38,631 bases of DNA from Gammaproteobacteria bacterium (GTDB lineage: Bacteria; Pseudomonadota; Gammaproteobacteria; Pseudomonadales; Azotimanducaceae). The position numbers were made by a program, and so were the translations under genes. Location of the stretch: contig JAPOOX010000183.1 of NCBI GenBank assembly GCA_026713185.1, positions 1 through 38,631 on the forward strand. The letters are read 5' to 3'. The notes under the pieces are model-generated. The model saw only the letters and a list, made by a program, of their open reading frames with translations, was not told where the DNA came from and did no database searches. Shown here one piece after another: positions 5,548 to 25,500 of this stretch (position 1 is its first letter; every line of letters begins with the position of its first letter).

Positions 5548-5551
5548 GATG

Positions 5552-7175: not shown

Positions 7176-7184
7176 AATAGCGAG

Positions 7185-7212
7185 ATTGTGGAACACCAGG
7201 GTGTTCCACAAT
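7185..7212 (-). promoter_or_regulatory. Perfect 13-bp hairpin between hvfA and hvfB
   Basis: attgtggaacacc at 7185-7197 and ggtgttccacaat at 7200-7212 are exact inverted repeats with a 2-base spacer. It sits 9 bases upstream of the chosen hvfB ATG and about 40 bases after the hvfA stop. No T-run follows on the transcribed strand. A processing, stability or attenuation element that makes precursor mRNA more abundant than enzyme mRNA would fit, and it could also mask the hvfB start. Confidence 0.7.
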
Positions 7213-7252
7213 AATGCAGATGGTGTTTAGGCATCACCTGCGATTGAAGAAT

Positions 7253-7543
7253 CTACTCTTCTTCTGCAGCTTCATCTTCTGCAGCGTCATCTTCTCCAGC
7301 GTCATCTTCTGCAGCATCATCTGCTCCTTCTTCCGTTTTCTCACCGCACTTGCCTTCGCCACAGGAGCCTTCGGCTTCTGCACCTTCTTCACCGGCATCC
7401 GCAAGCAGTAAATAACCACTATCGATTTCAGTTGATCCAAAGGGGTTTTCATCGGCCAATGCCAGTGGAGACAATGCCAAACCAGCACTCAGTACCGTGG
7501 CAACTGCGATTGGAAGAGTTTTTCTTGAAGTTTTCAGTTTCAT
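7253..7543 (-). CDS. hvfA: HvfA-like copper-RiPP precursor peptide
   Basis: A 96-residue precursor. A Sec signal peptide (residues 1-30, KTSRKTLPIAVATVLSAG... ending ALALA-like) precedes DENPF..TEIDSGYLLLAD, the leader pattern of HvfA-type low-complexity proteins. The core has two cysteines in the repeated motif EG(S/K)CG(E): C61 and C66. The remaining 28 residues are an acidic tail built of DDAAE/DDAGE units. Family knowledge predicts oxidation of the cysteines by the MNIO enzyme and export to the periplasm as a copper-binding peptide. The ATG has GAGGA eight bases upstream. The single motif pair is few for this family, where several are common. Confidence 0.87.
   Translation of the reverse strand: MKLKTSRKTLPIAVATVLSAGLALSPLALADENPFGSTEIDSGYLLLADAGEEGAEAEGSCGEGKCGEKTEEGADDAAEDDAGEDDAAEDEAAEEE
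7256..7325. repeat. Degenerate 15-bp repeat coding the acidic tail of the precursor
   Basis: On the plus strand tcatcttctgcagcg-like units recur in tandem about four to five times. Because 15 is a multiple of three, copy changes would add or remove five acidic residues without shifting frame. Confidence 0.75.
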
Positions 7544-7761
7544 TTAAGTGTTCCTCAAAATACAGAATAACAATTAAGCGGGGCTGCCTGAACAACTCTG
7601 CTCTTCATACATGTCAACACGCTAATCTGCATGCTTTCACGTTACACGATTGGAAACAACTATCAGCCACAAACACACTGCCCGATATTCCGAGACCGAC
7701 AATGTTACACCTTCTACTACATTGAAAGTCAACATAATTGACATCAACTACGGTAAAAAGT
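7544..7761 (-). promoter_or_regulatory. Upstream region of the hvf operon
   Basis: No gene seen. Read toward hvfA, it has two copies of GTGTAAC (minus strand, 7704-7710 and 7641-7647, 63 bp apart), which resemble -35 elements of ECF sigma factors, and a dyad GTCAA-n5-TTGAC at 7728-7742. Gold/copper-induced operons of this kind are often under ECF control, but I cannot find a convincing matching -10, so the promoter is only a candidate. Confidence 0.3.
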
Positions 7762-8115: not shown

Positions 8116-8279
8116 GAGCTCCTCTTCCACCTTTCTGTTTCATTCATACTAAGCCGTAGATGTTTCCTGTACCATTGACCCGGCATCATCCAGCGGATGT
8201 TACAGCATCAGGGGTGATATCGTGTACCTGGTCAATCGTCAGGAACGTTGTTGCCAGTATATGTCGTTAATGATCTGTT

Positions 8280-8322
8280 GACATAATATGTCCTACTCTG
8301 CAAGAATCTGACATATTATGTC
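8280..8322 (+). promoter_or_regulatory. Two palindromic operator-like sites upstream of the ABC-RND operon
   Basis: GACATAATATGTC at 8280-8292 and GACATATTATGTC at 8310-8322 are each perfect 6+6 dyads around one central base, and their starts are exactly 30 bp apart (about three helical turns). The first overlaps a consensus -35 hexamer TTGACA at 8278-8283, so a bound repressor would block a promoter there. No -10 of good quality is visible at the expected place. ATG of the first transporter gene follows about 60 bp after the second site. No regulator gene is adjacent. Confidence 0.7.
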
Positions 8323-8383: not shown

Positions 8384-9457
8384 ATGTCAGACAACCATGT
8401 GTCAGACAGCCATGAGCGAGACAGCCATGAGCGAGACAGCCATGAGCGAGACAGCCATGAGCGAGACAGCCATGAGCGAGACAGCCATGAGCTAGATAGA
8501 AGTCCTGAATTACCTTTCAGCTCTGAAGCCGTTATTGAAGTCAGAAATCTGAATCATACCTACAAAGGCGGTTATAAAGCTTTGGAGGATGTCAATCTCA
8601 TCTGTGGAGTCGGGGTCTTTGGATTGCTGGGTCCCAATGGCGCCGGAAAAAGCACGCTGATGCGTATTCTATGTACGCTGTTAAAACCGGAGGAGGGTCT
8701 GGTCAGGGTCTGCGGTCATGACGTCAACCGTGAACAGATGGCTATCCGCGCACAACTGGGCTATCTACCCCAGGATTTTGGCGCCTGGCGCTTACATCGT
8801 GTGGGGGAAGTTCTGGATACACTGGCCCGGTTATCCGGTATGCGGAATAAAGCAAATCGTCGCGCAAGAGTGACTGAAGTACTGCATGATGTCGGACTTG
8901 ACGAAGTCACCGACAGAAAGATAAAGAAACTGTCGGGAGGCATGTTACGCCGCCTGGGTGTCGCCCAGGCACTGATTCACGAACCCCGGGTGATCATAGT
9001 GGACGAACCGACAGTGGGACTTGACCCTGAGGAACGAATTCGATTTCGCAATGTAATGACGGACCTTGGTCGTGACCGGACAATTCTGCTGTCTACCCAT
9101 ATCGTGGCTGACCTCGGTGGCGCCTGTAAGGATATCGCCCTTCTCGATAACGGGCATATCATCTTTCAGGGGCCACCGTCGGAACTCGTTGCAAGGGCTG
9201 TCGGTCATGTTTTTGATGTTTCCGTCGGCGAAACCGAACTTGAGGGCATCGAGAGCAACTACGACATCATTTCCTCCAGCGTCGCAGGCGGCAGTATCAG
9301 AATGCGCGGCGTTGCCGGTGACAGACAACTGCCATTAAACGCCACAGTTATTCAGGAACCCAGCCTGGAGGAGAGCTACATGGCTTTTATGGCTGCCAGG
9401 GGCCGATCATCCGCAGCACGGCAGGATGAAGAACACACTGTTGAGGATTCTGCATGA
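8384..9457 (+). CDS. ABC transporter ATP-binding protein with N-terminal SHERD repeats
   Basis: A 357-residue ATPase of the NatA/CcmA type. Walker A GPNGAGKS spans residues 83-90, signature LSGGM 183-187, Walker B VIIVDE 203-208 and the switch His 239. Residues 9-38 are five SHERD units and one SHELD, absent from ordinary ABC ATPases. About 110 residues follow the cassette, ending in a conserved EESYMAFM element. It should power the permease encoded next, with which it overlaps by ATGA at 9454-9457. AGGAGA precedes the ATG. It closely resembles the ATPase domain fused to the RND pump at 17079: both share DEPTVGLDPxERIRFR. Confidence 0.93.
   Translation: MSDNHVSDSHERDSHERDSHERDSHERDSHERDSHELDRSPELPFSSEAVIEVRNLNHTYKGGYKALEDVNLICGVGVFGLLGPNGAGKSTLMRILCTLLKPEEGLVRVCGHDVNREQMAIRAQLGYLPQDFGAWRLHRVGEVLDTLARLSGMRNKANRRARVTEVLHDVGLDEVTDRKIKKLSGGMLRRLGVAQALIHEPRVIIVDEPTVGLDPEERIRFRNVMTDLGRDRTILLSTHIVADLGGACKDIALLDNGHIIFQGPPSELVARAVGHVFDVSVGETELEGIESNYDIISSSVAGGSIRMRGVAGDRQLPLNATVIQEPSLEESYMAFMAARGRSSAARQDEEHTVEDSA
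8408..8497 (+). repeat. 15-bp tandem repeat inside the ABC ATPase gene
   Basis: Five identical copies of agccatgagcgagac and a sixth changed one (giving SHELD). The unit keeps frame. Identity between copies shows recent expansion; number of copies may differ between strains. Confidence 0.93.
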
Positions 9458-12400
9458 TGCGATTACCCATGATACTTGTGGTCGCAAGTGCAGAAATGCG
9501 ATCAACCCGTCGCCTGTTCCGCTACTGGTTATTTGTTGTACTCTCCACGCTGACCGGTCTCTTCATGTTCCTGCAATTGACTATTGTACATGGCCTGTAC
9601 TCCAGTCTGTCTGCGACAGTTGGCGCCATTGGACCCCGTTACCTGATATCAGGCATCGGTACTCCCCTGCTGACAGTATTCCTGGCGGGTCTGATTTTTC
9701 TTGCCTTTGATGTTCGAGCCCGGGACGAGCGAGACCGCATGATCCAGGTTTTGGATGCAAGACCATTGTCCAATGCCGAATTCCTGCTTGGCAGGGTTTG
9801 CGGCCTCGTCTTCCTGACCTGGTTGCCGGTGCTGATAATATTGCTGTTGTTCTCAGGCTTTGGCTTTATCGCCATGGGACTTGACCTACCGATAGGTGAC
9901 CCGATTGAGCCCCTTTCACTCATCGGTTTCCTCCTCGGTTCTTTACTTTCAATACTGTTGTGGTGTTCCATCATTGTCCTGATGGCCATTTTCGTCCGAT
10001 ATCGTCTTCTTGTGGTCATACTGGCGATGGCGTTACTCGGCTTCCAATACTGGGGCACCTTCAATCTTCCCCTTTATCTGCAGCCGGTTTTTTCCGTACT
10101 CCCGTCGTCTGATATGGCCTCGGATATCCTTCCCCGGTTTTTTGCACAAGGAGAAACATCAAGACTACTGGCCCACGGTTTGATGGTGGTTGGGATTCTT
10201 GCGATCAGTATTGCCCTTTATCCACGCAATGACGGACATAACGTATTCCGGACGCTTGGAATCGGCGCCGGATTTCTGGTTCTGTCCGGGCTGGGTCTGG
10301 GTTTTTATGTCAACGGACAGGGTGCAAACATCCTGCAACAGAATGCCTTACGTGCAGTTCACGAATCGAAACAAACGCTGCCGCGTCCCGACATGCAATC
10401 TGTGACCGGTACTCTTGATATCCAGCCCGGTGATAACATTACCATGACACTGGATATCAAAGTTCAGGCGCCGCGGGAACAGAGCTTGTCTACTCTGCTG
10501 TTCACGCTCAATCCAGGATTGACGGTACATAGTGTGACTGTCGCCGGAGAGGATGCAGAGTGGCAGCATGCACAGGGGATGCTTGCAATTACACCGCCAT
10601 ACACCCTGGGTTCGGGGTCATATACCACTATTACTCTGCATGCCTCCGGTGTGCCGGATGAATTTTTCGGCTATCTGGACACCCATGTCAATGTATATGA
10701 AAACGATTCCGACACGGCTCAGTTGGGTTTGCTGGGTTATAAAACCAGCATCTTTGAGTCCGGATACATCGCCATGATGCCGGGTGGACACTGGCTGCCA
10801 TCCCCGGGCACAGATGTCCCGCAGAGTGACCCGCGAACTCATCCATACGATTACTACCTGCTGGACCTTGAGGTAGAAATCCCTGCCGACTGGCAGATTG
10901 CCGGGCCCGGCCGTAGTGAAGCGCTTGATGTTGCAGGTGACACCCGTCGTTTCCGCTTCAATCCTTCGGTTCCATTGCCTCAGGTCGGTCTGATTGCATC
11001 CCGATTCGAGCGCCGGGCAATGACGGCAGACGGCATTGAATTTGAGTTGCTGCTGCATCCGAAGCATGCCCGCAATCTGCAATTTTTTGCTGAAACGGAG
11101 AACGTGCTCAGAGAACGTATCACGGCACTGTTTTCATCAGCAGAAAATATGGACCTGCCCTATCCCTATGACGGGCTTAGCCTGGTTGAGATTCCCAATG
11201 CCCTGCGCGGCTATGGCGGGGGTTGGCGCATGGACACAGTTCAAGCCATGCCAGGTCTTCTGGCCTTGCGGGAATCCGGTTTTCCAACCTCTCGATTTGA
11301 ATTTGCATTTCGAAAACCAGGAGATTTTGAAGATAAGGAAGGCGGCATTGGTCAGGCCAAACTGGATGCTGTTGAAAAATTCTTCGAAAATGATTTCAGC
11401 GGCGGTAATCTGTTTACCGGCGGGTCTCGCAATTTCCTGCTGTTTCAAACCAGTGCCAGGGGTGAAGGAGCAATCGCGCTGAACTTCCTGCTGGAAGAAT
11501 TAACCTCGCAATTGATCACTGACAGGCGCGGCTATTTTTCAGCACATGAATTTGATGGGTCAGTCAATCTGCTGGTGGGACGGACAATAACCGATATGGC
11601 GACCGGGAGGAGCGATTCGATTGCGGACTCGGTACATAATTCATCGTCAAACCGGCCTTCGGTATGGGACCGGGCTCTGGGTGCTTCTTTGGCGGAACTG
11701 GACCCGGGCAATGATCCAGGGCAATCGCTCAATGTCCTCTCATTGAAATGTCGTGCCATTGCAAATGCCATTCTGGACGGATTGGGTAGAGAGAAAACCG
11801 CGGAACTTCTGAGCGAACTGGTCCGGCAATTCCGCGGTCGACACTTCAATGCCTCAGATTTTTATCGAATCGCGGCTGAACTTGATACTCCACTGGAACC
11901 GTTACTGGGTGACTGGCTGCAAGATGCTGCACTTCCCGGTTTTCTCGTATCCAGCGTTGAATCAGTGAGATTAACGGACGGTAAGCGGGGGAATCCCCGT
12001 TACCAGACCCGGGTGCATGTGCGCAACGACGAACCGGTCCCCGGCCTGATGCAATTGAAGTATACATGGAGCAAAGGAAAGAAGTTTTCGGTTAACGATG
12101 CAACGGACCCCGTTCTTGTCCCGGCAAAAAGCTCTGTGGAAGTCGGTGTACTCACGATCACACCGTTAGACAAACTCTGGCTGGCGCCTTATCTTTCCCT
12201 GAACCGCCAGGACGTATTGTTAAAGCTTCCACAGATGGACCTGGAACAGAGAATAGATGCAGAACCACTGACGGGAGCACGGGAAAGCCACTGGCAACCA
12301 CCACAAACAAATGACATTGTGGTGGATGATCTGGACCCAGGGTTCAGTTTGCACAGTGACAATCCAACAACTGAGACCAGGGCATTTGTTGTCGACTCCA

Positions 12401-12909
12401 ATTTCGGGGGCGGTACCGTCAGTTTTGATATGGATCAGGGACTGCCCGAGCATGTTGCCATGTATGGTTATCCCGAACGATGGAGCCGGTCTGTCAATGC
12501 CGACAGCTGGGGTAAATATCGACATACCCACGCCGTGATAAAACGTGGCAACGGTGACCGGCATGTTGTATTTACAACGGAATTACCTGATTCCGGACTT
12601 TGGAGGCTGTCTTATCATCTGCCGTTGAGCAAGACGGACAATCAAAAAGGGAAACAGAAACAGCAGCAGAACAACCAGTTATGGCAATTGACGAACAGAT
12701 TGCTGGGTGAATACCGTATGGAACTGGTATCTGACGGCAACAGCCGTTTTGTAGAATTTGACGGTAACGCAGCGTCTCCCGGCTGGAACGATCTGGGAGA
12801 ATTCCAGCTTCCGGCCGGTAAAACCGATATCATGATATCCGATGACACTACGGGTTCTATCGTGATTGCGGACGCCATCAGTTGGCGTCGGGTTTCGGGG
12901 GATGATTAG
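9454..12909 (+). CDS. ABC-2 type permease fused to a degenerate M1-peptidase-like domain and golvesin-like C-terminus
   Basis: A 1151-residue protein. Residues 1-290 contain seven predicted membrane segments of an ABC-2 permease (starting near RYWLFVVLSTLTGLFMF). Residues about 305-870 form a large extracytoplasmic part with M1-aminopeptidase-like order: beta-rich start, PYPYDGLSLVEIPNALRGYGG, then LLEELTSQL where the zinc motif should be, then the helical ending SDFYRIAAELDTPLEPLLGDWLQDAALPGF. In place of HEXXH there is EELTS (681-685), so no zinc peptidase activity is expected. The last ~170 residues end with GSIVIADAISWRR, resembling golvesin-type beta domains. ABC permease/M1 fusions are known in bacteria, usually with the zinc site. 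Overlaps the ATPase gene by 4 bp. Confidence 0.82.
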   Translation: MMRLPMILVVASAEMRSTRRLFRYWLFVVLSTLTGLFMFLQLTIVHGLYSSLSATVGAIGPRYLISGIGTPLLTVFLAGLIFLAFDVRARDERDRMIQVLDARPLSNAEFLLGRVCGLVFLTWLPVLIILLLFSGFGFIAMGLDLPIGDPIEPLSLIGFLLGSLLSILLWCSIIVLMAIFVRYRLLVVILAMALLGFQYWGTFNLPLYLQPVFSVLPSSDMASDILPRFFAQGETSRLLAHGLMVVGILAISIALYPRNDGHNVFRTLGIGAGFLVLSGLGLGFYVNGQGANILQQNALRAVHESKQTLPRPDMQSVTGTLDIQPGDNITMTLDIKVQAPREQSLSTLLFTLNPGLTVHSVTVAGEDAEWQHAQGMLAITPPYTLGSGSYTTITLHASGVPDEFFGYLDTHVNVYENDSDTAQLGLLGYKTSIFESGYIAMMPGGHWLPSPGTDVPQSDPRTHPYDYYLLDLEVEIPADWQIAGPGRSEALDVAGDTRRFRFNPSVPLPQVGLIASRFERRAMTADGIEFELLLHPKHARNLQFFAETENVLRERITALFSSAENMDLPYPYDGLSLVEIPNALRGYGGGWRMDTVQAMPGLLALRESGFPTSRFEFAFRKPGDFEDKEGGIGQAKLDAVEKFFENDFSGGNLFTGGSRNFLLFQTSARGEGAIALNFLLEELTSQLITDRRGYFSAHEFDGSVNLLVGRTITDMATGRSDSIADSVHNSSSNRPSVWDRALGASLAELDPGNDPGQSLNVLSLKCRAIANAILDGLGREKTAELLSELVRQFRGRHFNASDFYRIAAELDTPLEPLLGDWLQDAALPGFLVSSVESVRLTDGKRGNPRYQTRVHVRNDEPVPGLMQLKYTWSKGKKFSVNDATDPVLVPAKSSVEVGVLTITPLDKLWLAPYLSLNRQDVLLKLPQMDLEQRIDAEPLTGARESHWQPPQTNDIVVDDLDPGFSLHSDNPTTETRAFVVDSNFGGGTVSFDMDQGLPEHVAMYGYPERWSRSVNADSWGKYRHTHAVIKRGNGDRHVVFTTELPDSGLWRLSYHLPLSKTDNQKGKQKQQQNNQLWQLTNRLLGEYRMELVSDGNSRFVEFDGNAASPGWNDLGEFQLPAGKTDIMISDDTTGSIVIADAISWRRVSGDD

Positions 12910-12910
12910 G

Positions 12911-13996
12911 ATGGTAAAGATGATATCAGCAGGACAAACCACAGTGATTGCCAGCCTGCTGTTGCTACTGGCAGCTTGCGGAGAGTCAGGCAAAACGCCG
13001 CCGGTGGAATTCCGAATCCCCATCGAAGTCATCGAAGTCTCTACTGATGACATGGAAGACCTGATCGTGACTACCGGCGCGCTCAGGACAAGAGAAAGCG
13101 TCAATCTGGATGTGGAAACACCCGGCTTTCTCAAGCTTGCCAGGGATGAATCCGGCAACCCACTGGTAGAGGGGTCCGCCGTAAAGGCAGGTCAACTCAT
13201 CGCCGAAATTACCGGAGAAGATGCGCGCCTCGCCGCAGGACTGGAAGCCACCCGTCGACATCTGGAATCAGCAGAGAAGGAACTGAATCGACGTCAACAG
13301 TTGTTTGACCGGAAACTGATTGCCGAAGAAGATGTCTGGCAGGCAAGAACCCGTTACGAAGACGCATTGCACAATTTCGATACCAGCCAGCGTACTCTGG
13401 AAAAATCCCGTATTACGACACCCATTGACGGCGTCATACTGGAACTGGTCAGAGATGCCGGTGGTCAGACGATAGCCGATGGTCAGAAAGTTGTGCTGGG
13501 GCTCCGCATTGCCCGGGTAGCTCCCCTGGACAGACTCATTGCAGATATTGATCTGGTTGGACCGGACCTGTCTCGGGTAGCGCCGGGGCAATCAGTTCGT
13601 ATCAATCACTACGCCTTCGAAGATATTTCCATGGCTGGCACAGTCCTTCGTCTTGCGCCCACGCTGGACCCACAATCACGGACTTTTCGGGTCGAAGTAG
13701 AAGTTGATAATCAGGAAGGACTGCTGCGTCCCGGTATGTTTATCCAGGCATCGATCATTGCTGAACGCAGGGAAGACGTTATTGTAGTTCCAAGAGATGC
13801 CATCACTTTGCGCGCGGGTCGCAATGTGGTGTTTGTTGTCGATGGCCAGCGTGTGGTAGTGCGTCGGGTCGTCCTGGGGCTTGCTGATGACACCCGGCTT
13901 GAAGTTACCGAGGGTTTGAATGCCGGGGAGCGCGTTGCGGTTCGCGGGCTGGAAACATTGACTGACGGTACTCAGGTGAGAGTCGTTACCCCTTGA
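12911..13996 (+). CDS. RND efflux periplasmic adaptor lipoprotein (membrane fusion protein)
   Basis: A 361-residue adaptor. The signal sequence ends in a lipobox LAAC, giving a lipid-anchored Cys23. A lipoyl-like half motif is followed by a short coiled-coil hairpin (roughly residues 105-165, LEATRRHLESAEKELNRRQQL), then the second lipoyl half (SRITTPIDGVILELV), a beta-barrel domain (RTFRVEVEVDNQEGLLRPGMF) and a membrane-proximal domain. Such adaptors link an inner-membrane RND pump to an outer-membrane channel. ATG 12911 follows the permease stop by one base; ATG 12920, with AGGA eight bases upstream, is an equally good start. The next gene overlaps its stop. Confidence 0.92.
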   Translation: MVKMISAGQTTVIASLLLLLAACGESGKTPPVEFRIPIEVIEVSTDDMEDLIVTTGALRTRESVNLDVETPGFLKLARDESGNPLVEGSAVKAGQLIAEITGEDARLAAGLEATRRHLESAEKELNRRQQLFDRKLIAEEDVWQARTRYEDALHNFDTSQRTLEKSRITTPIDGVILELVRDAGGQTIADGQKVVLGLRIARVAPLDRLIADIDLVGPDLSRVAPGQSVRINHYAFEDISMAGTVLRLAPTLDPQSRTFRVEVEVDNQEGLLRPGMFIQASIIAERREDVIVVPRDAITLRAGRNVVFVVDGQRVVVRRVVLGLADDTRLEVTEGLNAGERVAVRGLETLTDGTQVRVVTP

Positions 13997-16900
13997 ACTT
14001 CGCTCAATCCATAGCGGCCCTGGCGGCGCAACGTCCGGTCGCCATCAGTGTGCTGGCGGTGGCTGTTGCAATGGTTGGCTGGCTGTCCTGGCAGCAATTA
14101 CCCGTTGACCTTCTGCCTGACCTGAAAAGTCCGACGATTGCCGTTTCAATCCGGGCGGGTGACCGTCCGCCGACAGAAATGGAGCGTTTATACGGTGAAC
14201 AGCTTGAACAACGTCTGTTTACCGTTCAGGGCATACGCGAGATATCCCAGGTGGCACGGTCCGGCAAGCTGATCGCTACCGTTGTATTCGACTGGGATGC
14301 CGATCTGGAGATTGCCCTGGTGGAAGTTCAGAAAGCCGTTGGCCCCATCGGTGCAGACCCGGCTGTTGATGAAATACTGGTACGTCGTTTCGACCCCCGG
14401 CAGGCGCCGGTTCTGACTTTTGGTCTCATCGCACCGGACGGCAGACCTGATCTGTCTGAACTGCGTCAACTCGCCCGACGACAGGTAGCACCCAATCTGG
14501 AACAACTTGATGGTGTGGCGGAAGTCCGGGTTACGGGTGGCCGTGAAAAGGAAGTCCGGGTTGCGCTGGACCGGTACAGGATGGAAGCCTTCAAAGTCAC
14601 ACTGACTCAGGTGGAGCAGCGCCTGAATGAAGAAAATGTCGATATTACAGCAGGCACGCTGGAGCAGGATGAAGAAGTCTATCTGGTTCGCGGCATGGCC
14701 CGTTTCCGAAGTCCGGAAGATGTCGCCAACGTTGTCGTCCGCTACGTTATGGCTGATGACGGCAGTCGTCAGGCTATCCGGGTGTCTGACGTTGGCAATG
14801 TATCCATGGTGGACCGGGAGATAGACCATCTGGTCAGGGTTAACGGCGCCGAGGGTGTTGGTCTTGCCATCTACAAGGAAGCCGCCGCCAATACCGTTGC
14901 AGTGTCCGGCATTGTCCAAACAGCTTTAGTCTCTCTGGCGGAAGATCTGCCCAATGTGGAACTGGTGGAAGTCAACGATGGGGCGGCACTGGTGGTCGAT
15001 GCACTGGCGGATCTGCAATTGGCCGCCGGGGTCGGCATATTGCTTGCCGTTGTAGTCCTTGCTCTGTTCCTCCGTTCCGTCGGCGCAACACTGGTTGTTT
15101 CTGCAGCAATCCCGGTCTCGCTTCTTGCCGCACTGTTTCTCATGGGTCTTGGCTCCCAGGGTCTGAATATCGTCACCCTGGCGGGCCTGGCGCTTGGCGC
15201 CGGGATGCTGGTGGACAACGCCATTGTTGTTGTAGAGAGCATCTACCGGAGACTGGCCGAAGGTGAAGCGCCGGAAACTGCCGCCGCCAGTGGCGCCGGA
15301 CAGGTCGCCGGCGCCATCACTGCCGCTACCCTGACCACATGTGTGGTCTTCCTGCCGGTGTTGTTCGTGGAAGGGATGGCGGCACGCCTGATCGAAGGCA
15401 TTGCTTTTACCGTTGTTGCTTCCCTGCTCGCTTCATTGACGGTAGCCATGTTACTCATCCCTGCACTGGCACGCTGGTTTATGCCTTCCACCCGGCAGAC
15501 TCTTAGCGCTGCAACGATACCGGCATACCGCCGACGGGTGGAATCGATAACACGCAGATTACTGTCCAGACCCGGTACAACCGTACTCATTGCCGTTCTG
15601 CTTGCCGGTATGAGTATTTCGGTGCTGGTTCGCCTGGGCACTGAACTGCTGCCATCGGCAGACCCGCGTCAATTTTCTTTACGGGTGGTAGGTCCGGCTG
15701 GACAACGGGTGGAATCAACCGCAAGGGTTGTGGAGAGTATCGAATCCCTTCTGGTACAGGCGAGCGACGATAATCTGGAAGCCGTGTTATCCGAAATTGG
15801 CAGATTGCCGGAAGACAGCCGCCTGATTCGCACAGAACTCACGGAAGAAAATACTGCAAGGCTGACTGTCAGGGTAGGTGACAACGGTCCGACCGGCAGA
15901 CAGATTGCCGCCCACCTGACCTCGCCCCTTGCTGTCCTGGAATCGACGGAATTCAACTGGGAAGTGGGCTCCAGTGCATTGTCCAGTGCGCTTGGCGCCA
16001 GCGGGCCCCCGGTAGTCGTTGAAATATCGGGACAGGCGCTACCGGATATTCAAAGAGGTACCGGGATAGTCAGGGACCGGCTGGCGGCACTGCCTGAACT
16101 GTGGAATGTACGTTCTTCCTTTGAAGGAGGACCTCCGGAACTCCGAATCGTCCTGAACCGGGTCATGGCGGATGGTCTGGGAATTGACCTGGGTACTTTG
16201 TCGAGAGTACTGGAAACCAACCTGGATGGACGGGATGTCACTCAACTGTCCATGGGCGATGAAGATCGACCCATCAGCCTTCGTATTCCCAAACCATCCC
16301 GGGAAGATCTGCAAAACATTGTATTTCACTCTGGCCAGGGGCAGAAAGTGACAGTGGGAGAGATTGCCGAATTTCAAGAGGCTGAAGGGGCCCGGGAAAT
16401 TTTCCGTCGGGATCAGAGGCGCACTGCACTGGTGACCGCAGAGATTTCCGAAGCCACCGATTATCCAGAAGCCATCGCTGCCGTCATGGAAGTATTAAAC
16501 TCGGAACCTCTGGTGCCGGGCCTGTATGCACAACTACGCGGGGAAGAAGCCGAACGTATCAAAACCTTTGATGAGTTGAAACTGGCTGGAATTCTGGCAC
16601 TGATACTGGTCCTGATGGTTCTGGCAGGATCATTTGAGTCATTTATTCACCCTGTCACAGTTCTGTCGGCCATACCAATGGCAATGATCGGCGTCGCTCT
16701 TGCGCTTGGACCCATTGGAGAACCTGTCGGTGTCATGGCGATGATGGGTCTGATCGTACTGGCCGGTATCGCCGTCAATGATGCCGTACTGCTGTTGACG
16801 ACAGCGCGGCAATTGATGGCACAAGGCGAGAAACAGGTTGACGCACTGGTCACTGCTGCCGGAATCCGCTTGCGGCCTGTACTCATGACAACCATCACCA

Positions 16901-17073
16901 CTGTTCTGGTACTGGCGCCCCTGCTCTTCGGCACTGGAGAAGGCGCCGCATTGAGGACGCCTATGGCAATCACCATTATCAGCGGTATCATTGCCTCCAC
17001 CATCGGCTCGCTGCTGGTGCTACCCTGCCTGTACCACTTGCTTGACCGGCTTCGGCCACACAGTCGGAGGTAG
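13993..17073 (+). CDS. RND family efflux permease
   Basis: A 1026-residue RND pump of the AcrB/HAE-like group with twelve predicted membrane segments and two large periplasmic loops. The fourth membrane helix carries VDN (V407-D408-N409), equivalent to the AcrB D407/D408 pair with the second Asp replaced by Asn, as in many non-AcrB RND pumps. The tenth has VND (928-930) where AcrB has Lys940. It should use the proton gradient to move a substrate with the adaptor encoded upstream. The start is TTG at 13993, overlapping the adaptor stop (TTGA), with GGTGAGAG about ten bases upstream. No ATG near it would keep the first membrane helix intact. Confidence 0.92.
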   Translation: MNFAQSIAALAAQRPVAISVLAVAVAMVGWLSWQQLPVDLLPDLKSPTIAVSIRAGDRPPTEMERLYGEQLEQRLFTVQGIREISQVARSGKLIATVVFDWDADLEIALVEVQKAVGPIGADPAVDEILVRRFDPRQAPVLTFGLIAPDGRPDLSELRQLARRQVAPNLEQLDGVAEVRVTGGREKEVRVALDRYRMEAFKVTLTQVEQRLNEENVDITAGTLEQDEEVYLVRGMARFRSPEDVANVVVRYVMADDGSRQAIRVSDVGNVSMVDREIDHLVRVNGAEGVGLAIYKEAAANTVAVSGIVQTALVSLAEDLPNVELVEVNDGAALVVDALADLQLAAGVGILLAVVVLALFLRSVGATLVVSAAIPVSLLAALFLMGLGSQGLNIVTLAGLALGAGMLVDNAIVVVESIYRRLAEGEAPETAAASGAGQVAGAITAATLTTCVVFLPVLFVEGMAARLIEGIAFTVVASLLASLTVAMLLIPALARWFMPSTRQTLSAATIPAYRRRVESITRRLLSRPGTTVLIAVLLAGMSISVLVRLGTELLPSADPRQFSLRVVGPAGQRVESTARVVESIESLLVQASDDNLEAVLSEIGRLPEDSRLIRTELTEENTARLTVRVGDNGPTGRQIAAHLTSPLAVLESTEFNWEVGSSALSSALGASGPPVVVEISGQALPDIQRGTGIVRDRLAALPELWNVRSSFEGGPPELRIVLNRVMADGLGIDLGTLSRVLETNLDGRDVTQLSMGDEDRPISLRIPKPSREDLQNIVFHSGQGQKVTVGEIAEFQEAEGAREIFRRDQRRTALVTAEISEATDYPEAIAAVMEVLNSEPLVPGLYAQLRGEEAERIKTFDELKLAGILALILVLMVLAGSFESFIHPVTVLSAIPMAMIGVALALGPIGEPVGVMAMMGLIVLAGIAVNDAVLLLTTARQLMAQGEKQVDALVTAAGIRLRPVLMTTITTVLVLAPLLFGTGEGAALRTPMAITIISGIIASTIGSLLVLPCLYHLLDRLRPHSRR

Positions 17074-17078
17074 TAGTC

Positions 17079-20000
17079 ATGGATTTATTTCTGCTGCCTG
17101 TACGCCGCCCGGTAGCCATAATGATGTTGTTCAGCGGCATCATGCTGCTGGGTGTGGTGGCCTGGCAGAAAATGCCTGTCGAACTGTTCCCGGAACTGGT
17201 GGGAAACCAGGTATCGATTCAGTTCTATCGACCAGGCAGCGAACCGGAAGTCCTGGAGCGGGAGATTCTGCTACCGCTTCAGGCCCAGGTATCCACCATA
17301 TCCGGTGTGTCGGAAACCTGGGGAGAGATAATCGGGACCAGCGGCCGGTTTGATGTGCAATTTGAATCAGGTGTCAACATCAAGGTCCGGGAGTTTGAGT
17401 TACAACGCATCATCACTGAAATACAGCGTAATCAACCACGTGGCGCCTGGCTGAATCTCAGGACATCCGGTACCGGGTCTTTCTCCGACCTTGCCATGAC
17501 ATTAAACGTTCTCGGCAGCAGCAACTACGACAAGGATGCACTGTACGATCTGGTAGATCAGATTGTTGCCCCGCGATTCGCTTCCATATCCGGCGTGAGT
17601 CAGGCTCAGGCTACCGGTGGCGCTCGCCGACAGGTAACGGTAACCGTTGATCCGGATCGCACGGCAGCACTCGGATTCACCACCGAGGACGTGACCAATA
17701 TGGTGCGGCGTACGGTTGGCCGCATGAAGTTTGTGGGTGGACTTGAGGATGAGACCGGGCGTACGGCAGTGATACTCGACGGCCGTCCCGTGAGTATCCA
17801 TGCCCTGGCCAATTCCCGCATTGCCAGAGACAAACCGGCATTGCTTGGACACGTCAGTGACGTTGCAATCGGTACGGGCCGGGAAGAAAGTCTGTTCCGT
17901 GTGAACGGACAGCCGGCTGTCGGCATGGTGATCTATAAAGAACAGGGAACCAACCTGATTCGACTCGGACGCACACTGCGAGACCGGGTTGATGAAGTCA
18001 GAGAGGAATTAAAACCCCAGGGAATGGACCTTGTGATTGGTTTTGATGCGGCTGAGGCCGTGGATGATCAAATCAGACATCTGTCAAAACTCGGAATTTC
18101 TGGTTTTGCCATCGCCCTGATCGTTCTTTATTTCTTTCTGAGACAATGGCGGGCCGTCGCCGTCGTCGGGATTGCGGTGCCAGTCAGTCTCTGTGCTGCA
18201 CTGTCTATGCTGTTTGCAGCCGGACAGACACTTAACCTGGTATCGCTGTTTGGTTTGATGCTGGTTATTGGTCTCGTGGTTGATAACAGCGTTGTGGTAT
18301 TCGAGGCCATCAAAAGACGGCTTGAACTTGGTCTGACAATTGAAAACGCCGTGTACAGAGGATTACGGCGTACGGTAAGGGCGATCCTTGCCACCAGCGC
18401 GACCACCGCGGTGGTATTTCTTCCGCTGGCAGTTGTTGATCTGGATGATGAATCGACCCGGCAATTAGCCCAGGTTGTCAGTATTTCCATTTTGCTGCCA
18501 CTCGTGGCTTCGCTGCTGGTCGCCATTGGCCTGGTACCATTGCTGGCGCATCGCCTTGCCGCACCCGCTGCGAAACAAAGACTGGCAGAAGCCAGAAGAC
18601 GCCGTTCGGAGCGAGGTAACAGCCAGCCACCGGACCAGGCTAAAATGATATTGAGCGGGACTGTTGCAAGTGCCTTGCGACATCCTCCCCCGCTGATCGC
18701 CGGAACCCTGGCGGCAATTCTGATCACAGTGGTCATTGCCCTGCCCTGGGTCATGGCCAACAACCAGTCTCAGGACGCAGCAGAACCTGATCGAATACAG
18801 TTGTCAGCACGCTTCCCCAGTGACCGGTCAATCAGAATTGCCAGTGACGCGGTTGCCAGGCTGGAAAATACTGTTCTGAAGATTCCGGAAGTCGAATCCA
18901 TAGAAGCGTTAATCGAACCCGATGGAGGTTCTCTTACCATCAACTTCATTGACCGCCAACTTCGTCCCGAGACTTTCAAGGTGCAGAGTGTCCGCGACAG
19001 CCTGCGCAAGGAAGCAGGCAGAATCAAAGGACTGGAAATCCTGCGTCCCGGTGAAGGACGCGATGCAAGAGGCAAGAACAGCGCAGTTGACATTCAGGGT
19101 GTCTTTGGAGGCGCCCCTGCTGAAATCGTTTTATCCGGTCCTGACAGTCGGGTACTGCTTGACCTTGCCGACAACATAGAAGCCCAACTGGGTTCCATGC
19201 CACAGATAGTGGCGGCCTGGACTACCACGCAGTCGGGGTTAAGTGAATACTGGGTGGAACCCGATCAAGTGACTTTTGAATCACTGGGCTTGAATTTTAA
19301 CCAGGTATTGCCGGCACTAAGGCTTGCGGGTCAGGAAGGTGAGCGGTTGCCCGTTGGATTTGTACTGCAAAGCGGTCGCGAATTGCCCCTGGTAGTCGAG
19401 CGCAAAGGCGCCCGGGAAGAAAATGTGGGGATGAGCGAACTGACTCGATTACGCATTCAGACCCCGGCAGGTGTATTGCCGGTGACATCTTTGGCAACCA
19501 TGCGCCAGATGCCGCCGCCAGCAGTGATCTCACACCACAACGGAAGGCGTGAAATGAGCGTGATGTACAGTCTGCGTGAAGATATACCGGAAACAGGTCC
19601 CACCCGCATCCTCATGGAAGATCAGATTGCTGAATCGATAAGAAGCATTCCAAGACCCCAGGGAACCACCATAAGTACTGATGAAACCGATGATACGACA
19701 ACCTGGCTGCGCAAGGTGGGGGTACCCGCCGCGGGATTACTGTTTCTGGTCCTCGCGATGACTTTTGAATCTCTCACCCTGCCTATTCTGGTGTTGATCG
19801 CCGTGCCGCTTACTCTCCTGGGTGCAGTTTGGGCTCTCGCTTTTGCCGGCATATCATTCAGCATCATGGCAGCACTGGGCGCGGTGGTCCTGACTGGTCT
19901 CAGTGTTAATCCCGCCATCCTGCTGGTTGACCGGATGCAGCAACTCATCCGGCAGGGCTGGAGTCTCGGCGCCGCCGCCTTCGCTGCCGTGCGTGAACGA

Positions 20001-21857
20001 ACAAGACCCATATTGATGACTTCCGCAACGACTATCGCCGGACTTTGGCCTCTCGCCATTACCACTGGCCGGGAAAACGAAATATGGCCGCCATTTGCCA
20101 CCATCGTTATCGGTGGTCTCATTACCTCCAGCCTGCTGACACTGTTGATGATACCGGTAGGATTTATCCTTCTCAAAAAAGTCGATCAGATTTTCAACCG
20201 GGTTGGTCCCTGGCTGGTTCTCGCCTGGATGGGCGGTACGGGTGCTGTCATGGCCTCCCTGATTCTTACGGATATCGTCAACACCCTGCTCTGGCAGTCG
20301 GTATCGACCCTGCTGACGGCATCCGGCCTGCTGGCCATGGTAGTACTCGTATTCAGACCCCGCGAAATTCCGGAACCGGACTGCACTGACGGTCCGCCCA
20401 GACTGGAAGTCAGGTTTCTGCATAAGACCTACGGTTTACCCGGCACATTGAAAACCGCACTGATGGCCCCCTCTGCCTATACCAGGAAAGTACTGGAAAG
20501 CGGCGGGAATGCATTTTTGACAGCGGATTCAAAAGACCGGCTCATACCTCTTGCCCTGGGTATCGCGGGCATTTGTACCATCGCGTATCTGGTACAGACC
20601 TCATTCTGGCAGTTGTTCTTCTGGCTTCTCGCAGGACTGTTACTATCGAAGTTTATTCTGAATGCTGGACGAGTGCTGGGACATGCCAGCAATACCACTG
20701 GAGCGATCGAATCCGGGAGGCTCGAAAACAAGCTCATTGCAGTGATTCCATGGCTTGTAATTGCCGTATTTTCCTGGTTTTCCGCCATCAAACCTCATCT
20801 GGATGGATCTGCCCTGCCCGGCATGTATGTTTTGTGCATCCTGACCGCGCTGTTCCTGGCTATCTTGCAAGGTATGCGCCGCAGTGCGCGATTACAGGCA
20901 AATGGCGAACTCGGCAACCGTGTCAGCAGTGAAGGTTTGGGATCTCTGGTTAACCTGTGGCGCAGTTGGTCCGCACAATTCGCCGGCATGGATCTGCCGA
21001 TCAATCCGGTGCATGCACTTGCCGGCGTTAATTTCAGTGTCGAGCGGGGCATGATTGGCATACTTGGCCCCAACGGCGCCGGTAAAACAACCCTGCTCCG
21101 GCAGCTTGCCGGGGTTCTGGACCCGACTCGCGGAACCATAATTTATGGCGGCGTTCATCTGCATAAGATCCAGCGGCACCTCGCCCGCTGGGTGGGTTAT
21201 CTCCCTCAGGATGCCGGTTTACCGGAAGGCATGTCCCCCAGGGAATATCTGACATGGTATGCGGCACTCTATGACATCCCTACAAATATCCGTACTCAAC
21301 GTGTCAATGAACTGCTGCAGGAAACAGGCCTCTCGGATAAAACTGACGACAAAATAAAGTCCCTGTCCGGTGGTATGCGACAGCGAGTGGCCGTTGCTCG
21401 TACCTTGTTGCGACTGCCGCCTGTCATCATCGTTGATGAACCCACTGTAGGGCTGGACCCCAGAGAAAGGATCCGCTTCCGGACCCTGCTGAGCAGACTG
21501 GCACGGGACCGGATCGTCCTGATCTCAACCCATGTTGTTGAGGATGTCGCCATCGCCTGCGATCGGGTTCTGGTCATATCGGAGGGTCATCTCGTCTTTG
21601 ATGGCGGCACCGACGCTCTTGCTGATTCGGCAACCGGACGTGTGTGGGAAATGAGGACCAAAGCAGACGAGAAGATTGCTCTGCCCGAGGGATCAATCCG
21701 TACCCACGAAACACCCGCGGCTGACGGTTCGATTGTCCACCGGATCATTGCAACTGGTAAACCCGGCGATGCCGCGAAACTGCTGCAGTCAACGCTTGAA
21801 GATGGCTATATGTGGCTGATATCCGGTAACACCGGAGCCCGGAGAATTACCACATGA
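17079..21857 (+). CDS. RND efflux permease fused to a six-helix membrane linker and an ABC ATPase
   Basis: A 1592-residue fusion in one unbroken frame. Residues 1-1025 are a complete RND pump: twelve membrane segments, D402-N403 in the fourth, VNP at 943-945 in the tenth. Residues about 1030-1290 add six hydrophobic segments in three pairs separated by polar stretches. Residues about 1305-1592 are a full ABC ATPase: Walker A GPNGAGKT 1330-1337, signature LSGGM 1429-1433, Walker B VIIVDE 1449-1454, switch His1485. With 12 + 6 helices the ATPase stays in the cytoplasm. RND pumps are normally proton driven and ABC ATPases separate, so this joins two energy sources in a chain. Starts 5 bp after the previous RND gene; overlaps the next by ATGA. 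Confidence 0.93.
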   Translation: MDLFLLPVRRPVAIMMLFSGIMLLGVVAWQKMPVELFPELVGNQVSIQFYRPGSEPEVLEREILLPLQAQVSTISGVSETWGEIIGTSGRFDVQFESGVNIKVREFELQRIITEIQRNQPRGAWLNLRTSGTGSFSDLAMTLNVLGSSNYDKDALYDLVDQIVAPRFASISGVSQAQATGGARRQVTVTVDPDRTAALGFTTEDVTNMVRRTVGRMKFVGGLEDETGRTAVILDGRPVSIHALANSRIARDKPALLGHVSDVAIGTGREESLFRVNGQPAVGMVIYKEQGTNLIRLGRTLRDRVDEVREELKPQGMDLVIGFDAAEAVDDQIRHLSKLGISGFAIALIVLYFFLRQWRAVAVVGIAVPVSLCAALSMLFAAGQTLNLVSLFGLMLVIGLVVDNSVVVFEAIKRRLELGLTIENAVYRGLRRTVRAILATSATTAVVFLPLAVVDLDDESTRQLAQVVSISILLPLVASLLVAIGLVPLLAHRLAAPAAKQRLAEARRRRSERGNSQPPDQAKMILSGTVASALRHPPPLIAGTLAAILITVVIALPWVMANNQSQDAAEPDRIQLSARFPSDRSIRIASDAVARLENTVLKIPEVESIEALIEPDGGSLTINFIDRQLRPETFKVQSVRDSLRKEAGRIKGLEILRPGEGRDARGKNSAVDIQGVFGGAPAEIVLSGPDSRVLLDLADNIEAQLGSMPQIVAAWTTTQSGLSEYWVEPDQVTFESLGLNFNQVLPALRLAGQEGERLPVGFVLQSGRELPLVVERKGAREENVGMSELTRLRIQTPAGVLPVTSLATMRQMPPPAVISHHNGRREMSVMYSLREDIPETGPTRILMEDQIAESIRSIPRPQGTTISTDETDDTTTWLRKVGVPAAGLLFLVLAMTFESLTLPILVLIAVPLTLLGAVWALAFAGISFSIMAALGAVVLTGLSVNPAILLVDRMQQLIRQGWSLGAAAFAAVRERTRPILMTSATTIAGLWPLAITTGRENEIWPPFATIVIGGLITSSLLTLLMIPVGFILLKKVDQIFNRVGPWLVLAWMGGTGAVMASLILTDIVNTLLWQSVSTLLTASGLLAMVVLVFRPREIPEPDCTDGPPRLEVRFLHKTYGLPGTLKTALMAPSAYTRKVLESGGNAFLTADSKDRLIPLALGIAGICTIAYLVQTSFWQLFFWLLAGLLLSKFILNAGRVLGHASNTTGAIESGRLENKLIAVIPWLVIAVFSWFSAIKPHLDGSALPGMYVLCILTALFLAILQGMRRSARLQANGELGNRVSSEGLGSLVNLWRSWSAQFAGMDLPINPVHALAGVNFSVERGMIGILGPNGAGKTTLLRQLAGVLDPTRGTIIYGGVHLHKIQRHLARWVGYLPQDAGLPEGMSPREYLTWYAALYDIPTNIRTQRVNELLQETGLSDKTDDKIKSLSGGMRQRVAVARTLLRLPPVIIVDEPTVGLDPRERIRFRTLLSRLARDRIVLISTHVVEDVAIACDRVLVISEGHLVFDGGTDALADSATGRVWEMRTKADEKIALPEGSIRTHETPAADGSIVHRIIATGKPGDAAKLLQSTLEDGYMWLISGNTGARRITT

Positions 21858-22597
21858 CCTGGCGGGCTGACCCGGGTTTCCTGCGCCATGCTCTGATCGT
21901 AGTGGCTGGCCATTACTACTGGTTGTTGCCGCTGGCGCCGCTCCTGTGGCTGATTTTTCATGGGATACGCATATATGTCGACCCGGCGAACGCCATTGCC
22001 GCCAGCAGTGTCCAGGGACAATTGATCGGTGTGCCCCTGACCGCCCTGGCCGTGTTCCTGGGTATCCGCATTATTGCCGGAGAAATCGAAGACCGAAGCC
22101 TGGAGATTGCCTATACGGTACCGGGTGGCTGTGAACGATTATGGTTTGCCAAACTCACTGCCGCCTTCCTTTTACTGTTGGTCAGTGAAGCGCTGCTTGC
22201 GCTTATGGTCATGTTTTTCTTTACCCCGTTCCCACCGGGCACACTTTACGGGGCAATGCAGGCAGCCTGTTTTTACATGATTCTTGCGATGGCTCTGGGT
22301 GCTCTGTTCCGCGGCGAAGCCAGTGGCGCCATCGCCACTGTGGTGGTCCTGGCCTTGAACGGTTTTATCACGGATTTCGGAAATAACCAGTTACGTTTCA
22401 CGCCTTTTTTTAATCCCTGGTTACTGGCAGATGCCAGTAACTTCGGCAACACAAGACAGGGGGGGTTTACCAGCCCCGCTGAACTTCTCGCATGGACCAT
22501 CCAGAACCGCATAGGCATGCTGTTGCTGATGGCGGCCATGCTTGCCCTGGCATTCCTTCGTTCCAACCGGCGAGAGCGGATGCTGGACGGGCTTTAA
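21854..22597 (+). CDS. ABC-2 type transporter permease
   Basis: A 247-residue membrane protein with six predicted segments: WLLPLAPLLWLIFHGI, LIGVPLTALAVFLGIRIIAGE, LTAAFLLLLVSEALLALMVM, AMQAACFYMILAMALGALF, GAIATVVVLALNGFI and MLLLMAAMLALAFLRS. The IIAGEIEDRSLEIAYTVPG stretch after the second helix is the typical ABC-2 coupling loop. The start overlaps the stop of the RND-ABC fusion, so it is probably the membrane partner of the fused ATPase. Its stop overlaps tail to tail with the carboxylase gene on the other strand, leaving no room for a terminator. Confidence 0.87.
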   Translation: MTWRADPGFLRHALIVVAGHYYWLLPLAPLLWLIFHGIRIYVDPANAIAASSVQGQLIGVPLTALAVFLGIRIIAGEIEDRSLEIAYTVPGGCERLWFAKLTAAFLLLLVSEALLALMVMFFFTPFPPGTLYGAMQAACFYMILAMALGALFRGEASGAIATVVVLALNGFITDFGNNQLRFTPFFNPWLLADASNFGNTRQGGFTSPAELLAWTIQNRIGMLLLMAAMLALAFLRSNRRERMLDGL

Positions 22598-25500
22598 GGT
22601 CTGAACTGTAAAGGTCTTGGCGCCAGTTGTGCCGGTTGCGAAATCACCCTGTATGCTGTTTCCACCCATTCACAGATGTAACGCCGCGTATCCCGTGGAT
22701 CAATCATCTCTTCCATCTGGAATTTATTCAGCGGCCCAACCGGACCCCGGACACTTTCAATTCGCGCATTGAGTTCAGCCCGTAGCGCCACCGGGTCCCG
22801 GGCCTCGGCCAATTGCCGTCTGTACGCCGCTTCTATCCCTCCTTCCGGTGGAATACCACCAACATCTGCTGCCGGCCATGCAACACGCATGGAAGGCCTT
22901 GAACGCGGTGTGGCATAGTTGTTACCCGCAACGCCAAAACTGCGGCGCATGACCACACTGAAGATTGGTATGTTGACCTGCGCAAACGCCACCATCCACT
23001 CACCTCCTTTCCGAATGGTCCCCGCAATTTCATGTTCCAGGCCAACAGCAAACCCCGGATTATCGATCAGATTGAGGACCGGTATATGGAACAGATCACA
23101 CAGGTCCAGATGTCTTTTCAGCTTGTTGCAACCGTCCGCAGTCAACGCCCCTCCATTGACGTGACGGCTGTCCGAGGCAATAACACCCACAGGATGACCG
23201 TTGAACCTGACAAAACCGGTTACCTGATCTGTTCCCCATAGTGGACCTGTCTCAAAAAAAGAATCTCTGTCCGCCATCAGGTTAATGGCTCTTCGGATAT
23301 CAAAGGTCGTTGTCCGCTTTCTGGGAATAAGTGACAACAGTTCTTCTTCCCTTCTGTCGATCGGATCTTGCCGGTCCGGTTCTGAAACCGGCGGTGCTTC
23401 ATAGACACTGGGCGGGAGATAGGACAGAAATCGACGGGTCATTGCAGCCGCTTCCTGTTCCGATTCCGCAAGGTTATCCACAGAGCCATTGGTGCAATGG
23501 ATATGCCAGTCACCCAGAGCTTCCTTGGTGATGTCGTAGCCCATGGCGTGTGCCACCACCGGCGGTCCGGCGACAAACAACTGGGCAATGTCGCGCACCA
23601 TCACGGAGAAATGCCCCAGTACCGCTTTTGCTGCGCCAATCCCCACGACACTGCCGAGGAGCATATTGACAACGGGTACCGTGGATAACTGCTCCGCATA
23701 CATGCTGCTGCCCAGGTGTCCTGGTAGATATGATCCGCCGCCGCCGGCAACCCGGGGTCTTCCGGCTTTGATGGCGCCACTGCTTTCCCTGGCTTTACTC
23801 TCGCCTTCTTCCTTCTGCGCAGGAACCATGGCGGCGACACTGCCGCCACCGGAGGAACCATCCAGCAACCGAACAGATGGAGATCGTAATTCCATGGATA
23901 ATCTGTCCAGGTAGTTACTCTTGGCGCCGATTGCACCATCTGCATGGCCACCCCTGGAGGTAAAGTCATCGGCACAGACAATCACTGTACGTCCTTCGAT
24001 TCTTCCCCATCCACCAACGCTGTTGGCCGGGGTAAATGCGTCAATGGCGCCAAATTCGTCATAGGAGGCAAATCCAGCGACACTGCCAACTTCACGGAAA
24101 CTGCCATCATCCAGCAGCAGCATAATACGTTCACGACAAGTCAATTTGCCACGGCTGCGCTGGCGTACCACTCCGGGGTCTTCCGATCCCGGGGCAAGTC
24201 TGGCTTCTGCCAGATCGCGGAGTGTATCCACCTCTTCCAGTAACGATGCCCAGGGTTTATCTTTTGAGGATTCCTGCGCACTGACTTCGGCGCTTTCCGC
24301 CAGAGTCAATACCATTACAATCTGCCCTGCAGCAAGGTTGTCCCCAACTGTTAATTTCTGAATAGTGGACACCACACCCGAACAGGGCGCCGTGACTACG
24401 GATTCCATCTTCATTGCCGTCACCACCATTACGGTATCACCAGCGGACACCACATCACCCTCGGTTACATCCAACTCCAGTAACTCACCGGTGACAGGAC
24501 AGGCGATACCCTGCTGACCATCTTCCACCGGCAGAGATGGGGCAATTGTTTTATTCAATGCATCGTCTACTGATTTGTCTGGCGCCTTCCCCTGCAGCAT
24601 CGAAACCGGACTGCCATCCGCCTCGGCAGAATGACTTTGCATTAATTCCGGTACTTCTGTCAGTAATGTAGTACGGGCATCCCCCTCGCCAACAGAGGGA
24701 TGAGAGAGAATTGAACGTAATTGTGGCAGATTGGTCGCTATGCCGGCGATATGAAATTCTTCCAGCGCGCGTTGTGTCCGTTGCACGGCGGAAGCGAGTG
24801 TTGCCGTGGAATTGGAACCACAGACCACCTTGGCCAGCAATGGATCAAACTGCACCGGGGGCGTATAACCCGCATAGCCCGATGCGTCTACACGCACGCC
24901 GGGACCGGAGGGTTCCTTATAGGCATGGATGGTTCCCTGCCCCCGTACGACTACCCTCGCCTGAACTGCGTAACCCCGCGGTGCACCCACTGCCTTCTGG
25001 TCCGCCAGACCCAGTGAGGATAAGGTTGCGCCGGACGCAATGTGGAATTGTGTTTCCACCAGGTCTATGCCCGTCACCTGTTCGGTAACGGTGTGTTCCA
25101 CCTGAATCCGTGGATTGCACTCGATAAAGTAATACTCGCCTGTCTCCGGAGAAATCAGAAACTCCACCGTACCGGCATTGACATATTCAACCGCCCGGGT
25201 CAGCTTGATGGCATCTGCCGCCAGGCGGTCCCGCAGGATGTCTGACAATCCTGGCGCCGGGGCAATCTCAATAACCTTCTGATGGTTGAATTGTACTGAA
25301 CAATCACGTTCATGAAGATGAATGATGTTGCCTTCGACATCACCAAGAACCTGCACTTCCACATGTCTTGGCCGGACAATGCATTTCTCCATGAAGACTG
25401 CGCCATCACCAAACGCCGACGCCGCTTCGCTCTGGCAACGGACAAATGCCTCTCTGATGGCGGCTTCATTCTCTACCCTGCGCATGCCGCGGCCACCACC

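Follow-up and report, generated by a model that had tools for sequence, protein, structure and literature searches.

An RND-ABC fusion protein with a predicted split nucleotide-binding domain lies in a conserved six-gene operon of a Pseudomonadales family

Six coupled genes combine ABC and RND components

The window analysed here is a stretch of 38,631 nucleotides, contig JAPOOX010000183.1 of assembly GCA_026713185.1, from a Gammaproteobacteria bacterium of the family Azotimanducaceae. Between positions 8384 and 22597 its plus strand carries six genes, P1 to P6, which code in turn for an ATP-binding cassette (ABC) ATPase, an ABC permease, a resistance-nodulation-division (RND) adaptor, an RND pump, an RND-ABC fusion protein and a second, small ABC permease (Table 1). 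The genes are adjacent or overlap: P1/P2 (9454), P3/P4 (13993) and P5/P6 (21854) share 4 bp, P2 and P3 overlap slightly, and 5 bp separate P4 from P5. The P3 frame opens at a TTG at 12866, and the ATG at 12902 is its likely start. A first-pass annotation of this DNA had described such a coupled array, and we recovered the same coordinates and overlaps. Its labels for the ATPase, the adaptor, the pump, the fusion and the last permease also agree with the Pfam and NCBIfam profiles by which we assigned P1-P6 to families; its label for P2 fared less well, as described below.

Table 1. Features of the operon and of the region upstream of it (TM, transmembrane; NBD, nucleotide-binding domain).
Feature	Position	Strand	Remark
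Sigma-70-like promoter candidate, TTGACA-18-AAGAAT, TG ahead of second hexamer	8278..8307	+	10/12 consensus matches, pattern only
Operator-like palindrome GACATAATATGTC, perfect, overlaps promoter candidate	8280..8292
Second operator-like palindrome GACATATTATGTC	8310..8322
P1, stand-alone ABC ATPase (NBD)	8384..9457	+	conserved part from ~8519; N-terminal SHERD repeats unconserved
P2, ABC-2 permease half, M1 N-terminal-like domain, region without HEXXH, Golvesin_C-like domain	9454..12909	+
P3, RND periplasmic adaptor, lipoprotein-type signal (LLAAC)	12902..13996	+
P4, RND (HAE-1-like) permease, 12 TM	13993..17073	+
P5, RND half, residues 1-1035	17079..20183	+
P5, two extra TM helices past the RND half, residues 1046-1092	20214..20354	+	hydropathy, conservation
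P5, putative detached NBD first strand / A-loop, PPRLEVRFLHKTYG region, residues 1105-1118	20391..20432	+
P5, predicted membrane insert inside NBD, ~190 residues, four TM helices	20433..21008	+
P5, rest of NBD, intact Walker A, Q-loop, signature, Walker B, H-loop	21009..21854	+
P6, small ABC-2 permease half, 6 TM, single copy	21854..22597	+

P5 joins an RND permease to an interrupted NBD

P5 is encoded by one open frame of 1592 amino acids, in which Pfam places ACR_tran at residues 8-1032 and ABC_tran at residues 1315-1456. Its RND half, whose best solved relatives are AdeB and MdtB, is followed by two TM helices, by the conserved motif GPP.LEV..L.K.YG, by about 190 residues with four TM helices and then by the remainder of the NBD. 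The motif resembles the first strand and A-loop of an NBD, and the C-terminal NBD (hereafter P5c) is complete, with Walker A and B, signature, H-loop and A-loop. No Pfam or NCBIfam family matched the membrane insert of the window copy.

The place of the motif in the NBD was examined by a splice test, in which every 24-residue segment of the linker was joined in turn to the NBD and the resulting chimaeras were scored with a hidden Markov model built from 61 other NBDs. In 9/9 homologues the GPP.LEV motif came out as the best segment and added 4.5-11.7 bits, whereas the next linker segment added no more than 3.5. Random segments used as controls stayed below the motif in every homologue; the largest control reached 6.0 in a homologue where the motif gave 8.1. 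Furthermore, an AlphaFold2 model of residues 1034-1592 has a predicted local distance difference test (pLDDT) score above 90 in the NBD and of about 91 in the detached strand. Its helices, at pLDDT 50-70, are of low confidence, and the input alignment held NBDs that may have guided the placing of strand 1. When the model is superposed on solved NBDs, its residues 72-75 pair with the residues that open those domains, and the alignment picks up again past the insert; with LptB, for example, 225 of 230 residues align at 1.6 Å, strand 1 coming from the far side of the membrane insert. Since the splice test and the model agree, we conclude that the NBD of P5 is, as modelled, split: the first beta-strand precedes the remainder by about 190 residues, and a nested membrane domain fills the gap. 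Such a topology would be unusual for an ABC ATPase.

The fusion belongs to a co-inherited gene set of one bacterial family

A search with the C-terminal part of P5 returned full-length fusions from all seven genomes of the window's genus and from three more genomes of the host's family. For counts of distribution we used a fusion-specific linker profile (A2), which detected the fusion in 54 of the 207 genomes of the family and in 8 of its 37 genera, with a frame of about 1600 amino acids wherever the contig is long enough. Three of these carriers are single-contig genomes. One carrier (L048) is a metagenome-assembled genome named Pseudomonadales bacterium, ALOHA; in a contig scan with a profile of generic ATPase motifs (A1) it was the sole true relative among the matches listed. 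Outside the host's family the linker profile found no fusion in even, non-exhaustive samples of 391 genomes of the order and 398 of the phylum, which cover about 370 and about 400 genomes, respectively, of other families. The known carriers thus all belong to a single Pseudomonadales family, most of whose members are uncultured. About 50 independent genomes have the frame open, which rules out assembly error or chance as its source. A mobile or viral origin was likewise rejected, given that the viral contigs searched held no relative and that, among the plasmid matches listed, no record covered 80% of P5 in one place and only generic RND or ABC sequences were hit. Within the limits of our literature search, we found no paper describing an RND-ABC fusion.

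The six-gene order, which the first-pass annotation proposed to seek elsewhere with the fusion as query, is complete in eleven genomes (G001, G002, G003, G022, G800, G832, G884, G922, G924, G926 and G939) and is interrupted by contig ends in four (G004, G005, G006 and G012). In genus g8, each of the nine P5 loci read holds P5-P6 alone, and P1-P4 occupy another place, as read in G013, G281 and G783; in some genomes of g37, P1-P2 are detached or P2 is inverted. P2 occurs in 56 of the 207 family genomes. That annotation had named homologues that never occur together as evidence against its single machine, and the opposite was observed: P5 and P2 co-occur in 54/54 genomes with the fusion, also where the operon is split (Fisher p 6e-48, uncorrected for kinship). 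In addition, among 13 genomes tested, the 11 fusion carriers have one P1 and one P6 each, apart from a second, more distant P1 match (39% identical) in G022, and the two P2-bearing genomes that lack the fusion have neither gene. The P5 RND-ABC fusion is real, lineage-specific and part of a co-inherited gene set.

Could the operon nevertheless hold two or three separate transporters that share a substrate class, mechanically uncoupled and fused for the sake of membrane targeting or stoichiometry? The gene order of g8 and g37 varies as this would allow, and unfused ABC and RND neighbours exist elsewhere, for example an Azospirillum RND permease beside HlyD and RbbA. However, 8 genera have kept a fusion of 1600 residues whose NBD harbours a membrane insert, and P1, P5, P6 and P2 are retained together after operon breakage, so we consider separate transporters quite unlikely. 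The co-retention of both units in g8, despite the distance of P5-P6 from P1-P4, counts for one machine.

P1, P2, P5c and P6 resemble one dispersed ABC-2 exporter

P1 matches ABC_tran. Both NBDs, P1 and P5c, score best against the models of GldA (185.3 and 174.3 bits, respectively; NCBIfam cut-off 402.6) and DrrA (184.3 and 171.4 bits; cut-off 312.45), which likens them to GldA(FG)- and DrrAB-type ABC-2 exporters; the scores nevertheless lie below the cut-offs, and those exporters have no RND part. Within the family, the closest simple relatives of P1 adjoin proteins of 12-13 TM helices that comprise two ABC-2 transmembrane domains (TMDs) and Peptidase_M1. ABC-2 permease/M1 aminopeptidase proteins are filed as TC 3.A.1.145 (Myxococcus Q1D520; PMC3924187). 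P1, P5c and the ATPases of these simple systems fall into a single clade (99/96), in which each makes up a group of its own.

The permeases are less readily recognised. The profiles give P2 weak matches to ABC2_membrane_3 and Golvesin_C and give P6 a weak match to ABC2_membrane_2. P2 comprises an ABC-2 permease half (residues 1-290), an M1 N-terminal-like domain (291-560) and a Golvesin_C-like domain (about 1015-1143), its periplasmic part being 860 residues long. Hydropathy shows 6-7 hydrophobic segments, so P2 does not hold two TMDs (12-13 TM helices) in one protein. In profile-profile comparison P2 matches the second half of the 12-TM permease/M1 proteins (98.6%, E 5e-16), its TMD aligns with both of their TMDs (probability 95.6-95.7), and residues 291-560 match the region ahead of their M1 domain (94.8). 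The TMD half that P2 lacks is likely to be P6.

The first-pass annotation had called P2 permease/M1-like. Homology to the TM half and to the M1 N-terminal region bears this out; the catalytic part of the label does not hold, as Pfam gives no M1 match on P2 and the region corresponding to the M1 catalytic part has no significant profile-profile match. HEXXH is missing at the expected position in 20 P2 orthologues and HExxHQW in 56 paralogues, while five 12-TM relatives have an intact HELAHQWW-type motif (HELAHQWW or HEMAHQWW). With HEXXH absent, we rejected P2 as an active M1 peptidase; judged by its sequence, it is a putative pseudo-peptidase, an M1-type permease without the zinc site. A profile search of the PDB with P2 gave nothing significant and a weak match to the C-terminus of xanthan lyase, and a single-sequence fold of the periplasmic part (pLDDT 33.6) was not used.

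Relative to the TC 3.A.1.145 proteins, then, the ATPases group together and the P2 TMD and residues 291-560 are homologous. In contrast, 12-13 TM helices and an intact HEXXH lie in one protein there, whereas here the TMDs are split over P2 and P6, HEXXH is lost, a second NBD has been added and an RND pump is fused on. Given the homology of P2 to the 12-TM proteins, that P6 is another ABC-2 half and that the ATPases share a clade, we read P1, P2, P5c and P6 as one exporter rather than two.

P2 is multiplied around single-copy motor genes

The genomes of the window's genus have one P2. There are 24 P2 places in the 2.6-Mb genome G783, 14 in G281 and 3-5 in several others; in G403, G936 and G940 some of the places counted are pieces of one gene. 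Thus P2 ranges from one to at least 24 copies per genome against single copies of P1, P5 and P6 in the genomes tested. Most copies are solitary and some form arrays next to P1-P4. Directly upstream of P1-P2-P3-P4 in G783 (C27:165000-204999; L204, L205) lie consecutive P2 genes, a tandem expansion beside the core.

Among the 23 P2 paralogues of G783, residues 8-26 and 85-113 are the best conserved (0.38 and 0.42, against 0.17-0.34 elsewhere). These are the cytosolic stretches where ABC-2 permeases meet their NBDs, and they appear conserved as if all copies must dock to the same ATPases. As P2 reaches 24 copies per genome and the motor parts are single, the pattern suggests a hybrid export machine with exchangeable parts.

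A single-copy motor with multi-copy membrane partners is also the pattern of group II energy-coupling factor (ECF) transporters, in which many S-components share one ATPase module (PMC7755397). Their membrane proteins are, however, unrelated, they are importers and they have no RND part, and the sharing proposed here would follow from copy number. If it is true, a set of many P2 proteins around one core would mirror, on the export side, the way in which ECF importers share a motor, and it would account for small genomes that maintain dozens of large permeases but so few ATPases dedicated to them.

The same large periplasmic part (pseudo-M1 and Golvesin_C-like), in up to 24 variants per genome, might instead belong not to a small-molecule pump but to an envelope-assembly machine for the export or folding of proteins, lipoproteins or polymers, each P2 being the periplasmic docking protein of one client. 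No client gene recurs next to the P2 copies, and we think this very improbable.

The RND subunits lack part of the AcrB proton relay

P3 matches the RND_mfp adaptor profile at 190 bits (cut-off 94.9). P4 and P5 match ACR_tran at 651 and 514 bits, respectively, over about 1020 positions, and both match MdtB among solved structures; hydropathy gives 12 strong peaks in P4 and 10 in the RND half of P5. An adaptor followed by two different RND permeases is also the arrangement of MdtBC, an HAE-1 system with two different RND subunits, except that here one of the two subunits is extended by six further TM helices and by an ABC NBD. TolC-type genes are present elsewhere in the genome.

P4 and P5 differ from AcrB in their proton-relay residues. 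Equivalents of D407 and R971 are present in all 21 P4 and 30 P5 sequences, and that of T978 in all P4 and in 26 of the 30 P5, but D408 and K940 are replaced by Asn in all 51, leaving the relay set incomplete. Because other RND proteins of the genome, free of any ABC part (L005, L008), show D408N/K940N too, the pattern does not prove that proton coupling has been lost.

These residues bear on a further explanation, that of an ATP-gated RND pump, in which the ATP cycle of P5c and P1 would mechanically drive or regulate the RND trimer much as ATPases of the MacB or FtsEX type power movements in the periplasm, replacing or supplementing the proton cycle, and the ABC part would move no substrate. 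Besides the two Asn positions, it could draw on the Pro that P5 has beside the Asn position (VNP) and on the covalent tie between NBD and RND subunit through a conserved six-helix membrane linker. However, the pattern shared by L005 and L008 speaks against it, as does the retention of the ABC-2 TMDs of P2 and P6; furthermore, the multiplication of P2 with conserved NBD-facing loops suggests that the ABC part itself works. We regard an ATP-gated pump as unlikely.

A model for one trans-envelope exporter

We propose, as a somewhat probable reading, that the operon encodes one trans-envelope exporter, in which a heteromeric ABC unit of P1, P2, P5c and P6 is tethered to an RND trimer of P4 and P5 and in which P2 is exchangeable. 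P1 and P5c would supply the two ATP-binding domains, and P2 and P6 the two membrane halves, of an ABC-2 exporter of the permease/M1 kind. P4 and the N-terminal part of P5 would form the RND (hetero)trimer, with P3 connecting it to an outer-membrane channel of the TolC type whose gene lies outside the operon. At the inner membrane the ABC part would use ATP to move or extract the substrate, and the large pseudo-peptidase part of P2 would present it to the RND porter for expulsion. P2 would be the exchangeable and probably substrate-specifying subunit, many P2 genes being served by one P1/P5/P6 core. We infer the single physical complex, the pairing of NBDs with TMDs, the direction of export, the exchange of P2, the hand-over of substrate and the role of proton flow.

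This proposal revises the view that the operon holds two ABC and two RND systems. The fusion and the tight operon stand; since the nearest simple relatives have two TMDs and M1 in one protein beside one ATPase, one heteromeric ABC unit and one RND heterotrimer is the better description. The membrane insert in the P5 NBD, the lost M1 zinc site and the multiplied P2 genes are additions to the first-pass annotation.

Several observations weigh against the exporter model. P6 shows only a weak resemblance to the P2 TMD (31.7%, E 5e-4) and next to none to TMD1 of the 12-TM proteins. Proton coupling is unsure, the equivalents of D408 and K940 being absent from both RND halves. Among the neighbours of solitary P2 genes examined, none recurs in a way that might hint at a substrate. 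Finally, G936 (L195), with about a dozen P2 genes, and G008 (L194), with one, have no P1, P5 or P6; P2 may work without the core, or these drafts may have gaps.

Like MacAB-TolC, the proposed exporter would be ATP-driven, with a periplasmic adaptor and an outer-membrane channel; MacB, however, unites NBD and permease in one protein and lacks an RND part. Whether the operon founds a new transporter class is more doubtful. Such a class would consist of a single machine with a covalent link between its ABC (ATP) and RND (proton) motors and with an NBD whose A-loop strand and Walker A flank a membrane domain; the machine would serve pseudo-peptidase permease subunits that can replace one another, as many as two dozen of them in one small genome. 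We advance it only tentatively. Primary (ATP) and secondary (ion) transport are treated as separate, and a conserved fusion of the two allows one to ask whether ATP hydrolysis drives or feeds an RND pump.

Upstream region and neighbouring genes

The promoter candidate at 8278..8307 is the sole good one on the plus strand upstream of the operon. The exact motif GACATnnnATGTC occurs twice in the window (0.08 expected), and is found near the P1 start in six other genomes, either upstream or within the first codons of the open frame (L166). A 15-bp tandem repeat of 7.2 copies (8389-8496) codes for the SHERD repeats at the start of P1. The P1 homologues align only past these repeats; P1 may thus really begin further downstream, or else have a variable N-terminus.

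Ordinary housekeeping genes flank the operon. Downstream, the minus strand encodes a protein of 1131 amino acids with biotin carboxylase, biotin carrier and carboxyl transferase in one chain (22594-25989). Upstream, also on the minus strand, are a tRNA-Ser (CGA) at 3407-3496 and, at 4957-7546, a cluster comprising an MbnB/TglH/ChrH-type enzyme for a ribosomally synthesised and post-translationally modified peptide (RiPP), a DUF2063 protein, a DoxX protein and a small secreted precursor, which bears the motif EGSCGEGKCGE and has an acidic tail. The cluster resembles a bufferin-type (metal-binding RiPP) operon. A further 15-bp tandem repeat (7260-7322) falls in the acidic tail of the precursor gene, and the RiPP enzyme gene also adjoins the transporter operon in G002, G003 and G005.

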